NCBI GenBank assembly: GCA_900016865.1
Contig: FIZI01000013.1
Location: forward strand, 62,001 to 126,000
DNA: 64,000 nucleotides
DNA from: an uncultured Clostridia bacterium
Lineage (GTDB): Bacteria > Bacillota > DTU014
Direction: 5' to 3'
Below are positions 11,520 to 16,877 of the stretch, piece after piece. The notes beneath the pieces are model-generated. The model searched no databases. It had not been told where the DNA came from and was given only the letters and a program-made list of their open reading frames with translations. The first letter of the stretch is position 1. Each line of letters opens with the position of its first letter. Position numbers and translations under genes: made by a program.

Positions 11520-11582
11520 ATGAGGAAAATCGAGAGCGATGACATCTCTAGGCCGATGTGTGGTCTCCGGAGCGACCGTTGA
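11520..11582 (+). CDS. possible 20-residue peptide ORF
   Basis: An ATG with AGGAG at 11508-11512, seven bases upstream, opens a 20-codon frame (MRKIESDDISRPMCGLRSDR) that ends in TGA 17 codons before nothing else recognisable. It begins 17 bases after the stop of the M16 peptidase gene. It may be a real small gene, the broken start of a lost gene in the place where B. subtilis has ymxH and spoVFA, or chance. Its last five bases overlap the 13-bp inverted repeat at 11578. Confidence 0.25.
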   Translation: MRKIESDDISRPMCGLRSDR

Positions 11583-11621
11583 GCCAACTCGGAGCCATGG
11601 ACGACGGAGAGTTGGCTCAAC
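11578..11621. repeat. 13-bp perfect inverted repeat
   Basis: GTTGAGCCAACTC at 11578-11590 is exactly inverted at 11609-11621 with an 18-base loop. No T-run follows, so it is not a standard terminator. Part of the loop (CGGAGCCATGGACGACGG, from 11590) recurs imperfectly just downstream (CGGAGCCAAGGACGGCGG, from 11631). It could mark a terminated mlpA transcript, a protein site or the scar of a mobile or lost element. Confidence 0.6.
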
Positions 11622-11689
11622 CACAGCGAGCGGAGCCAAGGACGGCGGGATGAGCGGGAAGCAGAGGAGGCCGGTGTTCGACAGAGTGG

Positions 11690-11718
11690 TTGACAATACT
11701 GCGTCTTTAGTAGAGAAT
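11690..11718 (+). promoter_or_regulatory. candidate sigma-A promoter of the riboswitch-controlled dap operon
   Basis: A consensus -35 TTGACA (11690-11695) is separated by 17 bases from GAGAAT (11713-11718), which matches the -10 consensus at four of six positions. Transcription would start near 11725, about 25 bases before the lysine riboswitch. The placement supports the call; the -10 is weak. Confidence 0.55.
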
Positions 11719-11748
11719 GTGTTCAAGATGTAATCGATGGTTTTGTGA

Positions 11749-11944
11749 GTCGGATAGAGGAGCAGGCCGCCAAGAGTAGCCGGGTGTTGCGGGGGCATCA
11801 CCGCTAGGGCATCCGGTGAAAGGGGCGTCTGCCGAAGTCCGGATCCGGGATGCAGGTTTCGGGCTGGGCGTGCAGTGAACAACTGCACGACTGTCACACA
11901 CTGTCACACGCAGAATTCTGTAGTGTGTGGAGCGCTATCATGAC
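11749..11944 (+). promoter_or_regulatory. lysine riboswitch (L box)
   Basis: The stretch reproduces the conserved blocks of the L box in order, as I recall them from the B. subtilis lysC leader: GATAGAGGAGC and AAGAGTA at the 5' side, GGTGAAAGGGGC followed by GCCGAAG, GGGCTGG, a GTGCAGTGAACAACTGCAC hairpin with CTGTCAC, and TGTGGAGCGCTATC at the 3' side. GATAG (11753-11757) pairs with CTATC (11935-11939) and GTC (11749-11751) with GAC (11942-11944) to close the basal helix. An intrinsic terminator follows at 12042. Lysine binding would therefore stop transcription before dapB, fitting the DAP/lysine genes that follow. Confidence 0.92.
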
Positions 11945-12041
11945 GGTTGCGACTACTCCCCGGAGCGCGGCCAGTGAGCCCAGGGAGACTCTTAACCAGT
12001 TGCCGCTAGCTTGTCACTGAGCCAAGCGGTTCACGAGGAGA

Positions 12042-12078
12042 AGTTGGTCCGCCTGATGGTTAGCGACCAGCTTTTTTT
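12042..12078 (+). terminator. intrinsic terminator of the lysine riboswitch expression platform
   Basis: AGTTGGTC (12042-12049) pairs along its whole length, with one G-U pair, with GACCAGCT (12065-12072), and seven T follow (12072-12078). It lies 98 bases after the riboswitch aptamer and 38 bases before the dapB start, as expected for transcriptional attenuation. I could not identify the antiterminator pairing by eye. Confidence 0.8.
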
Positions 12079-12115
12079 GGTCTATCAGGTATCGCGAGGA
12101 TGGTGAATAGAGGCA

Positions 12116-12919
12116 TTGAGCCGGCATAGGGTTGTAGTGGTTGGAGCATGTGGCAAGATGGGTTCAGAAGTGGTTAGAGCAGTTACGTCACAGGGCGACA
12201 TGGAGCTTGTCGGTGCAGTCGACGTTGTCAACTGTGGAGAGGACATCGGTCAGCTCGTCGGACTTGGGCCACTCGGGGTCCCAGTAGTCTCAGACCTGAC
12301 AGAATGCCTCAAGACGGTCGGGGCCACTCACGCGGTCGATTTCACGACACCGCGCAGTGTAAAGAAAAACGCCACAGCAATGCTGAACGCAGGTGTGAGG
12401 CCGGTAGTGGGAACGACAGGGCTCAGCCAGGATGATATCGAGGAGCTAACGGAGCTGTCTGAGCGTCAGAATCTCGGTGGTGTGATCGCTCCGAACTTCG
12501 CGATCGGAGCCGCACTTATGATGAAGTTTGCTGTAGAAGCAAGCAAGTATTTCCCCAGTGTCGAAATAGTTGAGCTCCACCACGACCGCAAACTGGATGC
12601 GCCGTCCGGGACCGCTATCAGGACTGCAGAGATGATCGTCACTGCCGGGCGAAGGCCGACTTCAAGGGACGTATCCGAAATCGAGTCGCTTTCGGGAGCA
12701 AGAGGCGGAGCGTTGGAGGGGATCCGCATTCACAGCATAAGGCTTCCCGGCCTGATTGCTCACCAGGAGGTCATACTGGGGAACGAAGGGCAGATCCTTA
12801 CTATCCGCCATGATTCCACGAGCCGGACGTCGTTTATGCCCGGCGTGATTCTCGCTATCAGGCGAGTGACTGATTTGGATCGGCTTGTCTACGGGATGGA
12901 AAGCCTTCTTGACCTTTGA
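12116..12919 (+). CDS. dapB: 4-hydroxy-tetrahydrodipicolinate reductase DapB
   Basis: 267 codons. The frame is closed upstream by a TGA at 12104-12106, so TTG 12116 is the only start that keeps the N-terminal strand; its ribosome site (AGAGG at 12109-12113) is unusually close. The Rossmann motif VVVGACGKMGSEV binds NAD(P)H, VVGTTGL is conserved, and ELHHDRKLDAPSGTA is the substrate-binding signature with the catalytic His and Lys. It reduces dihydrodipicolinate toward meso-DAP and lysine. It is the first gene after the lysine riboswitch and occupies the place where B. subtilis has spoVFA. Confidence 0.96.
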   Translation: MSRHRVVVVGACGKMGSEVVRAVTSQGDMELVGAVDVVNCGEDIGQLVGLGPLGVPVVSDLTECLKTVGATHAVDFTTPRSVKKNATAMLNAGVRPVVGTTGLSQDDIEELTELSERQNLGGVIAPNFAIGAALMMKFAVEASKYFPSVEIVELHHDRKLDAPSGTAIRTAEMIVTAGRRPTSRDVSEIESLSGARGGALEGIRIHSIRLPGLIAHQEVILGNEGQILTIRHDSTSRTSFMPGVILAIRRVTDLDRLVYGMESLLDL

Positions 12920-13049
12920 GCTAGGCTCCAGGCACCTCAGCTAGCGCGTTCACATAGTATCTTAGAGGGAGTATAGACGACAGTGTGAACTCTCCCAGCG
13001 TTGCTTGGCAGCTGGCCAAGTAGGCCCTTGTCTGTGGGAGGTGCCTTGA

Positions 13050-13637
13050 GTGCGTTTCAAAGGTAGGAAGATCGGATTCGCATTGACTGGGTCGCACTGC
13101 ACCATTCCTGAGGTCCTTCCGGTGATCGAGAGTCTGGTCAAAGACGGTGCAGGGGTGCTTGCCATAGTGTCCGAGTCGGTCAGAGATACCGACACTAGGT
13201 TCGGCACTGCGGAGGAGCTTATGAGATCGCTAGCGCGGATCACTGGTGCTCAGCCCATATCGACTGTAGCAGAAGCCGAGCCACTCGGCCCAAAGAGGTT
13301 GCTGGACTGTCTGGTGATTGCTCCGTGCACCGGAAACACTGCTGCCAGATTGGCCAATGGCATAGTGGACGGGCCTGTCACCATGGCTGCAAAGGCTCAG
13401 CTCCGAAACAAGAGACCGGTAGTGATAGCCATATCTACGAATGACGGCCTCGGGCTAAATGCGAAGAACATCGGGGTTCTGCTGAATACACCTGACATAT
13501 ACATGGTGCCTTACAGGCAGGATAACCCGGCCGAAAAACCCAAGTCTATTGTTGCTTTGATGCATAGAATCCCGGACACTATTGAGTCGGCAATTAACGG
13601 AAAGCAGATCCAGCCGATTATCGTAGGCCCATGCTGA
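13050..13637 (+). CDS. spoVFB: dipicolinate synthase subunit B (SpoVFB/DpaB)
   Basis: 195 codons from GTG, eight bases after GGAGG (13037-13041). A flavoprotein-like fold is seen: KIGFALTGSHCTIPEV at the start, CLVIAPCTGNTAARLANGIVDGPVTMAAKA in the middle (the region that resembles flavin-binding decarboxylases) and RPVVIAISTNDGLG. In spore formers DpaA and DpaB together oxidise dihydrodipicolinate to dipicolinic acid in the mother cell. No dpaA lies in this window. A 130-bp gap before the gene may hold a sporulation promoter, but none is clear. Confidence 0.95.
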   Translation: MRFKGRKIGFALTGSHCTIPEVLPVIESLVKDGAGVLAIVSESVRDTDTRFGTAEELMRSLARITGAQPISTVAEAEPLGPKRLLDCLVIAPCTGNTAARLANGIVDGPVTMAAKAQLRNKRPVVIAISTNDGLGLNAKNIGVLLNTPDIYMVPYRQDNPAEKPKSIVALMHRIPDTIESAINGKQIQPIIVGPC

Positions 13638-13712: not shown

Positions 13713-14747
13713 GTGAAAAGGTACAACGTTGCTATTGTGGGAGCTACTGGAGCTGTTGGCAAGGAACTCATAACTCTGCTTGGGGAACGCAAGTTCCCTC
13801 TCAAGTCACTGAGGTTGTTGGCCTCGAGCAGGTCTAAAGGAATGACCATGGATACGCCAATGGGGCCGGTGGTTGTCGAAGAGACGACGTCAGAGTCGTT
13901 TGATGGAATAGATGTGGCTTTCTTTAGCGCAGGCGGATCTGTATCGAAGCAGTTCGCACCGATTGCCGTGCAGAGCGGAGCACTTGTCATAGACAACACC
14001 AGCGCTTTTAGGTTGGATCCGGATGTGCCACTTGTGGTGCCTGAGGTTAACGCTGAAGCGGTCCGCCATCACAAAGGCGTGATCTCCAATCCCAACTGCT
14101 CCACGACGATTATGGCAGTCGCCATTAAGCCAATACACGATCAGGCCAAGATTAAGCGAATCGTAGTCTCAACTTACCAAGCGGTGTCCGGTGCAGGCGT
14201 CAAGGCGATCACTGCTTTGGAGCACGAAAGCCGGAGCCACCTTGCTGGAGAGCCAGTAGAGCCGGCAGTTTTGCCGTACGCATCCGCTCCAACACATCAC
14301 CAGATCGCTTTCAACCTCATCCCGCACATCGATGTGTTCGACGAGATGGGATACACCAAGGAAGAATGGAAGATGGTCAAGGAGACCCAGAAGATAATGA
14401 ATTGCCCAGAGATGGCCATTACAGCCACAACCGTTCGTGTTCCGGTGTTTCGGTGCCACTCAGAATCGATAAACATCGAGACCGAAAGGAAGCTGACTGC
14501 TTCAGAGGCTCGTGAGATCCTGAGCCAGGCTTCGGGTATCAAGGTGGTGGATGATCCAGAGCAGTGTATCTATCCAATGCCCGCGCATCTGTCCGGCAGT
14601 GACGAAGTGTTCGTTGGCAGGATCAGAGAAGACAACTCGATCGAAAAAGGGTTGAACTTGTGGGTGGTGGGTGACCAGATACGAAAGGGTGCTGCTTTGA
14701 ACTCCCTTCAGATAGTTGAGTACATGATCTCAGAGGCCCTCGTGTGA
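13713..14747 (+). CDS. asd: aspartate-semialdehyde dehydrogenase
   Basis: 344 codons from GTG 13713 with a purine-rich GAGGGGG about ten bases upstream. The N-terminus has the NADP-binding GATGAVGKEL (10-19), and SNPNCSTT carries the catalytic Cys129. HQIAFNLIPHID and the late VGDQIRKGAALN are family motifs. It converts aspartyl phosphate to aspartate semialdehyde, the branch compound for DAP, lysine, threonine and methionine. The next gene, aspartokinase, begins eleven bases after its stop. Confidence 0.97.
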   Translation: MKRYNVAIVGATGAVGKELITLLGERKFPLKSLRLLASSRSKGMTMDTPMGPVVVEETTSESFDGIDVAFFSAGGSVSKQFAPIAVQSGALVIDNTSAFRLDPDVPLVVPEVNAEAVRHHKGVISNPNCSTTIMAVAIKPIHDQAKIKRIVVSTYQAVSGAGVKAITALEHESRSHLAGEPVEPAVLPYASAPTHHQIAFNLIPHIDVFDEMGYTKEEWKMVKETQKIMNCPEMAITATTVRVPVFRCHSESINIETERKLTASEAREILSQASGIKVVDDPEQCIYPMPAHLSGSDEVFVGRIREDNSIEKGLNLWVVGDQIRKGAALNSLQIVEYMISEALV

Positions 14748-14757
14748 GGTGGGTAAC

Positions 14758-15975
14758 ATGGGACTGGTTGTTCAGAAGTTCGGAGGTACGTCGCTCGCAA
14801 CCCTCGAGGGCCGTGAGCGTGTAGCAGACATAGTCTGCCGCACCGTTGCGCAAGGCTATGATGTGGTGGTTGTTGTCTCTGCGATTGGACGTTACCCCGA
14901 TGCGTACTCGACAGACGGGCTCCTCAAGCTCGTTGAAGGCTATGCAGAGTGGCAGGATCTGCGAGAGAAGGACCTGTTGATGTCTTGCGGAGAAGTCATC
15001 TCTGCCGTCGTTATGGCGCACCTTCTAAGGAGTAAGGGATGCAAGGCAGCTGCTCTCACCGGCGGTCAGGCTGGAGTGACAACGACTCGTGATCATTGCG
15101 ACGCCCACATTACAAGAGTAGATACTGATAGAATCCGGCGCCATTTGATGCGACAAGAGATCGTGGTAGTCGCAGGGTTTCAGGGCGTGACAGAAGATGG
15201 AGAAGTCACCACTTTGGGCCGCGGGGGCAGCGACACTACGGCTGCGGCTCTTGGTGTCGCACTGAAGGCCGATCGCATTGAGGTCTATACGGATGTCAAT
15301 GGGATCATGACTGCCGACCCGCGTCTTGTCAAGTCGGCAACGACTGTAAGCTGCTTAAGCTACAGAGAGGTTTGCGAGATGGCGGAGATGGGAGCCAGGG
15401 TAATACACCCGAGAGCAGTTGAAATCGCGATGGAGGGCGGATTGCCTATAGTGATACGCAGTACCTTTAGTGACGATGAAGGGACTCAAGTCGGTGCGGT
15501 TCCGGGAACACCCGGAGTTGTCGAGATAGGAAGCGACCGAGTGGTGACCAGTATTGCTCACATCGCCAACCTCGCTCAAGTGCGGGTTGTGGCCGAGGGT
15601 GACAAACCTCTGCCTGCGCGTGAGCTTTTCAGGAGTCTTGCCAACGTCGGTGTAAGTGTTGATCTGATAAATCTGTCGCCACACGATGCTTCGTTTACCA
15701 TTCGCTCTGCCGAAGCTGAGAAGGCTTCAGCAGCGTTGCGAGATTTGGGACTCAATTTTGTCGTTGAAGACGGGTTTGCCAAAGTCTCGGCTGTCGGTGC
15801 AGGAATGCGAGGAGTGCCGGGCGTGATGGCTGCCATTGTTGAAGCGCTGACGGACGCAGGGATTAGGATCTATCAGACCGCCGACTCTCACACGAGTATA
15901 TCTTGCCTCGTGCGCATGGAGGACATGGAGGCTGCGGCAGTCGCGTTGCACGACAGATTCAGGCTTTCGAAGTAA
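14758..15975 (+). CDS. dapG: aspartokinase with C-terminal ACT domains
   Basis: 405 codons from ATG 14758 behind GAGGTGGG (14746-14753); GTG 14749 overlaps that site. The kinase domain opens with VVQKFGGTSLA and contains the nucleotide and aspartate motifs TTLGRGGSDTTA and YTDVNGIMTADPR. Two ACT domains fill residues about 260-405. It phosphorylates aspartate, the first step of the pathway. By order (asd-dapG-dapA) it matches B. subtilis DapG, which is feedback controlled by meso-DAP; the effector here cannot be read from sequence. Confidence 0.96.
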   Translation: MGLVVQKFGGTSLATLEGRERVADIVCRTVAQGYDVVVVVSAIGRYPDAYSTDGLLKLVEGYAEWQDLREKDLLMSCGEVISAVVMAHLLRSKGCKAAALTGGQAGVTTTRDHCDAHITRVDTDRIRRHLMRQEIVVVAGFQGVTEDGEVTTLGRGGSDTTAAALGVALKADRIEVYTDVNGIMTADPRLVKSATTVSCLSYREVCEMAEMGARVIHPRAVEIAMEGGLPIVIRSTFSDDEGTQVGAVPGTPGVVEIGSDRVVTSIAHIANLAQVRVVAEGDKPLPARELFRSLANVGVSVDLINLSPHDASFTIRSAEAEKASAALRDLGLNFVVEDGFAKVSAVGAGMRGVPGVMAAIVEALTDAGIRIYQTADSHTSISCLVRMEDMEAAAVALHDRFRLSK

Positions 15976-15995: not shown

Positions 15996-16877
15996 ATGGC
16001 AGACTTTGGAGCGCTCCTGGTAGCTATGGTTACGCCGATGAACAAGGACATGAGTGTCGACATTGCCGGCGCACGTGAGTTGGCGAGACGGTTGGTAGAT
16101 GATGGCTGTGACGGACTTGTTGTGTCCGGTTCGACAGGCGAATCGTCTGCCTTGACTGACAGTGAGAAAGTCGCACTTTTTGAAGCAGTTGTTGAGGAGG
16201 TAGGCGGTAAAGCTGCTGTGATAGCCGGTACAGGCACTTATTGCACAGCCCAGAGTATTGAACTGACGCGCAGTGCAGAGAGAGTCGGAGTCGATGGGAT
16301 CATGCTTGTGACTCCCTACTACAACAAGCCTCCTCAGAGAGCACTTGTTGAGCACTTCTCATCAATCGCGGCGTCTACGTCCTTGCCTGTCATCCTTTAC
16401 AATGTTCCTTCCAGGACTGCGTGCAACATGGCGCCGGAGACAGTAGCGGAGTTGAGCCGGATCAAGAACATCGCTGGCATCAAAGAGGCTAGCGGAGACA
16501 TGACTCAGGTCTCTTGGATCAGAGCCATGACCAGCAGTGACTTCGCCATCTATAGCGGCAACGATGCTGATACCTTGCCAGTGTTGGCTCTCGGAGGGCG
16601 AGGCGTCATCAGCGTTGCTGGCAATCTAGTTTCCAGGACCATGAAGGCAATGATAGAGTCTTTCGAGGCTGGAAACACCCCAAAGGCCAGGGATCTGCAC
16701 CTGAAGCTGCTGCCTTTGTTTGAAGCTCTATTTGTCGAGTCCAACCCAATACCTGTGAAGTACGCGATGAGTCTTCTAGGGATGCCGGCTGGGCCTCTTC
16801 GCCTTCCGCTCGTCGAGATCTCGGACGCGGCTGCGAAAGAAGTCCGTGACGCACTGAGCGGCCTCGGTTTGATCTAG
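15996..16877 (+). CDS. dapA: 4-hydroxy-tetrahydrodipicolinate synthase DapA
   Basis: 293 codons from ATG 15996 with GGGGAGGG at 15980-15987; the length matches the family. It is a TIM-barrel class I aldolase with GSTGES (45-50), Tyr135 in ILYNVPSRT and the Schiff-base Lys163 in AGIKEASGD. It condenses pyruvate with aspartate semialdehyde. The product goes both to DapB (lysine, DAP) and to dipicolinate synthase during sporulation. It appears to end the riboswitch operon, since a promoter and a terminator follow before RNase J. Confidence 0.97.
   Translation: MADFGALLVAMVTPMNKDMSVDIAGARELARRLVDDGCDGLVVSGSTGESSALTDSEKVALFEAVVEEVGGKAAVIAGTGTYCTAQSIELTRSAERVGVDGIMLVTPYYNKPPQRALVEHFSSIAASTSLPVILYNVPSRTACNMAPETVAELSRIKNIAGIKEASGDMTQVSWIRAMTSSDFAIYSGNDADTLPVLALGGRGVISVAGNLVSRTMKAMIESFEAGNTPKARDLHLKLLPLFEALFVESNPIPVKYAMSLLGMPAGPLRLPLVEISDAAAKEVRDALSGLGLI

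Follow-up and report, generated by a model that had tools for sequence, protein, structure and literature searches.

A lysine switch before DPA-precursor genes is not unusual in itself, since C. difficile carries one before asd-dapA3-dapB1-dapH (CD3224-3227) (PMC11477304). Many riboswitch-controlled dap operons were described by Mukherjee et al. (2017; PMC5584792), none of them with dpa genes, and the strings 'dipicolin' and 'spoV' occur nowhere in the text of that study. In B. subtilis, the dpaAB genes, named spoVFA and spoVFB there, are under SigK control (PMC5629000). A search of the open-access literature found no paper on a lysine riboswitch together with dipicolinate, or together with sporulation and meso-diaminopimelate; because only open-access papers were covered, this negative result is weak evidence of novelty.

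In the window, by which we mean the whole 64 kb stretch of DNA analyzed here, a lysine riboswitch stands before dapB-dpaB-asd-dapG-dapA, and a sigma-K-type site lies inside the operon. The features of the locus are as follows.

11550..11672, + strand: structured dispersed repeat of ~120 bp with outer stem GGTCTCC/GGAGGCC (own-genome similarity search)
11690..11718, + strand: sigma-A-type promoter TTGACA-N17-GAGAAT (promoter scan)
11747..11945, + strand: lysine riboswitch aptamer, RF00168 (Rfam covariance-model search)
11934..12060, + strand: predicted antiterminator, P1 3' strand 11934-11946 with 12049-12060 (equilibrium folding only)
12042..12078, + strand: intrinsic terminator hairpin and U-tract (folding)
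12116..12919, + strand: dapB, 4-hydroxy-tetrahydrodipicolinate reductase, TTG start (TIGR00036, 278.8 bits)
12934..12960, + strand: sigma-K-type promoter-like site between dapB and dpaB, AC-N17-CATAGTAT (motif search)
13050..13637, + strand: dpaB, dipicolinate synthase subunit B (TIGR02852, 273.8 bits; NF006161, 302.1 bits)
13713..14747, + strand: asd, aspartate-semialdehyde dehydrogenase (TIGR01296, 458.1 bits)
14749..15975, + strand: dapG-type aspartate kinase (NF006068, 536.2 bits)
15996..16877, + strand: dapA, 4-hydroxy-tetrahydrodipicolinate synthase, start codon inferred (TIGR00674, 345.6 bits)

The earlier note on this DNA had described the genes as a joint DAP/lysine/dipicolinate operon. 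The identities of dapB, dpaB, asd, dapG, and dapA stood, as each exceeds its curated NCBIfam cut-off, but the dipicolinate part is incomplete, with dpaA located elsewhere both here and in the sister genome. The operon is followed 3' of dapA by an RNase J family gene (rnjA), and an M16-type peptidase gene (called mlpA) and two sporulation-type polysaccharide deacetylase genes lie 5' of the riboswitch. The dapB gene of the operon is the sole dapB in the assembly. Elsewhere in the genome are another aspartate kinase gene, of the PRK09034 type, and two lysA-like genes, all without a lysine riboswitch. The MurE of this genome contains the DNPR motif, which marks DAP-adding enzymes. With the only dapB behind a predicted lysine-OFF switch and a MurE of this kind, the supply of DAP to the cell wall must tolerate repression by lysine.

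The full RF00168 model (1-182) matched the + strand of the leader at 11747-11945 with 99.9 bits, the gathering score being 30 bits. The alignment retains the core blocks AGAGG.GC, GAAAGG, GCCGAAG, CUGGG, ACUGUCAC, and GUGGAG, and the lysine-biosynthesis genes dapB, asd, dapG, and dapA lie downstream of the aptamer. No other Rfam family passes threshold anywhere in the window, and the 2.19 Mb assembly contains no second lysine riboswitch. Upstream of the aptamer, the TTGACA-N17-GAGAAT promoter agrees with the consensus at 10 of 12 positions; the leader region contains two promoter-like sites compared with a mean of 0.4 in shuffles. The riboswitch is an ordinary lysine riboswitch in a somewhat unusual place. 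The earlier note had read a lysine riboswitch with promoter and downstream intrinsic terminator from a span, 11690-12919, that extends from the -35 box through the dapB stop codon, and had proposed a covariance-model search of the leader; all three elements were recovered, the search giving a significant match (E 2.4e-25).

Within the aptamer, a tandem duplication (CTGTCACACA/CTGTCACACG) at window positions 11891-11911 in the P5 strand allows two possible P5 registers. The dispersed repeat between mlpA and the riboswitch promoter is probably not part of the switch. At least eight copies (L128-L135) occur elsewhere in the same genome with 79-81% identity (E below 1e-9), and six pairs of its predicted stem are changed on both sides in a compensatory manner. 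Neither an Rfam match at threshold nor a plasmid match was found for the repeat.

The terminator stem pairs AGUUGGUC (12042-12049) with GACCAGCU (12065-12072) and is followed by UUUUUU, the hairpin and U-tract ending approximately 37 nt upstream of the dapB start. A simple terminator scan missed this hairpin because its loop is longer than 8 nt, and folding recovered it with a probability of 0.91 in the free transcript and 0.95 when P1 was forced, compared with 0.46 when P1 was blocked. By this computation, the expression platform is mutually exclusive with P1. In partial transcripts starting at 11730 and ending at 12062-12070, the P1 3' strand (11934-11946) paired with 12049-12060 in the free fold, and the 5' arm of the terminator was captured by a 17-pair helix (11950-11968/12026-12046); the antiterminator also encloses the helix 11969-11977/12014-12023. 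When transcripts from 11730 reached 12074 or beyond, P1 and the terminator won. All leader folds are equilibrium folds whose outcome varies with the chosen 5' end, and a fold begun at 11747 instead of 11730 kept P1 in the free fold at 12069. Complementarity of P1 to the terminator arm was modestly above chance (47 of 1000 shuffles were as good), and only 9 of 300 shuffles of the antiterminator region folded as well. Another helix, 12004-12011/12058-12065, was rejected as an antiterminator, its computed probability being 0 in all states.

Very probably, the leader is a lysine-OFF transcription-attenuation riboswitch. This mechanism was assigned mainly because of the riboswitch family and anatomy, from which we infer lysine binding and the direction of control, and folding gives consistent support. 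Transcription from the vegetative sigma-A promoter would read through into dapB-dpaB-asd-dapG-dapA to an extent set by attenuation. Bound lysine would hold P1 together and allow the terminator at 12042-12078 to form; without lysine, the P1 3' strand would join the long antiterminator, which would take up the 5' arm of the terminator and let the operon be read.

The arrangement was compared among 80 dpaB loci from a species-level genome collection. The closest locus (L006, 70% identity) apparently comes from the assembly also listed as G001, the one other member of the window's order and class in the collection. This sister locus keeps the order mlpA-dapB-dpaB-asd-dapG-dapA-rnjA and has no lysine riboswitch, the mlpA-dapB spacing being approximately 90 bp versus 612 bp in the window. 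In two loci of other Bacillota, L017 and L033, dapB-dpaA-dpaB-asd-dapG-dapA is directly preceded by a lysine riboswitch and a terminator-like hairpin/T-run. Therefore, the placement recurs in Bacillota and is not conserved within the window's family, in which the sister operon indicates that lysine control is dispensable. With two genomes, a gain in the window cannot be distinguished from a loss in the sister.

The sigma-K consensus is AC-N17-CATANNNTA. The dapB-dpaB gap of the window, 130 bp long, contains AC-N17-CATANNNT at 12934-12960, with a counterpart at the aligned place in the sister; as AC-N17-CATAGTATC, the site at 12934 meets the consensus except for the last base, and the sister version, AC-N17-CATATGAT, is the only strict match there in 10.6 kb. 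Of the genomes examined, six have dpaB immediately after dapB (the window, L006, L020, L021, L025, and L029), and each of them carries a sigma-K-type site in this gap. The strict pattern (spacer 16-18) preceded 22 of 79 first dpa genes versus 10 of 233 control genes (Fisher p 5e-8, relatedness ignored). With seven fixed bases, the motif is short and also arises by chance; the + strand of the 64 kb window matches it six times. A relaxed consensus (best 8-base score) separated dpa genes from controls poorly and was rejected. At dapB-dpaA loci, where the gap is short, we saw no clear sigma-K-type site; in L009 and L017 the pattern is matched within dapB itself. The earlier note had argued that a lysine-OFF switch before dpaB implies either a second sporulation promoter or low lysine at sporulation, and had suggested looking for sigma-E/K sites before dpaB in relatives; the site conserved in the sister, with sigma-K-type sites between dapB and dpaB in further genomes, lends sequence support to the promoter.

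These sites suggest that an internal sigma-K promoter in the dapB-dpaB gap is used in sporulation, which we consider fairly probable. Late in sporulation, this mother-cell promoter would drive dpaB-asd-dapG-dapA whatever the lysine level, and dpaA would be supplied from its own locus. The riboswitch could instead govern the entire operon without any internal promoter, dipicolinate being made because lysine is low at sporulation. The operon genes are indeed closely spaced on one strand, and the dapB-dpaA loci that lack a clear site indicate that some lineages may use the upstream promoter; however, the length of the dapB-dpaB gap, its site shared with the sister, and the similar sites in four further genomes make this reading unlikely. 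Far less credible is a riboswitch that has decayed or is mainly translational, the hairpin at 12042-12078 being irrelevant. The sister does without the riboswitch entirely and the aptamer scores below most other lysine riboswitches found, but every core block is kept, the hairpin and U-tract lie shortly before the start of dapB, and in the folds P1 is in competition with the 5' arm.

The dpaA gene lies on another contig (G000:C32:44568-45404), as it does in the sister G001, so that dpaA is not adjacent to dpaB as in a complete dipicolinate synthase operon. Loss of dpaA was rejected because the gene is present elsewhere in the genome. In both genomes dpaA is directly behind a D-Ala-D-Ala carboxypeptidase gene, and the four remaining genomes with adjacent dapB and dpaB likewise have dpaA at a separate location. 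In all six examined genomes with dapB-dpaB adjacency, dpaA is followed by a homologous gene for a GidA-like (PF01134) FAD oxidoreductase (L002 172-1467, - strand; L112; L145-L148); no such gene was found close to the remaining dpaB loci of the set. That this oxidoreductase is linked to dipicolinate synthesis is a guess. That the pathway is split in this group of spore-formers, with dpaB having stayed in an aspartate operon under lysine and sporulation control and dpaA having moved beside the conserved oxidoreductase, which may be a third dipicolinate component, is a doubtful proposition. A search upstream of dpaA and of the preceding carboxypeptidase gene in the window's genome found no sigma-K site. 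In L145, L146, and L149, sigma-K-type sites (AC-N17/18-CATACAYT) occur just before the relocated dpaA, near 1420 on the dpaA strand.

The locus is a compact example of an operon that a growth-stage metabolite switch and a developmental spore promoter appear to share; the internal promoter, if used, could let the dipicolinate part escape the lysine switch. The leader resembles the B. subtilis lysC L-box (RF00168) in its full aptamer, sigma-A promoter, terminator, P1-competing antiterminator, and aspartate-pathway target, but the switch here governs dapB-dpaB-asd-dapG-dapA, including a dipicolinate synthase subunit gene. As in the asd-dapA-dapB-type operons of Clostridiales (PMC5584792; PMC11477304), a lysine riboswitch precedes several DAP-pathway genes in a spore-former, although those operons are given without dpaB. 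The canonical spoVFA-spoVFB-asd-dapG-dapA operon of Bacilli shares the order dpaB-asd-dapG-dapA and the sigma-K-type site before the dpa genes, whereas in the window dpaA is missing from the operon, dapB is placed in front, and a lysine riboswitch leads the transcript.
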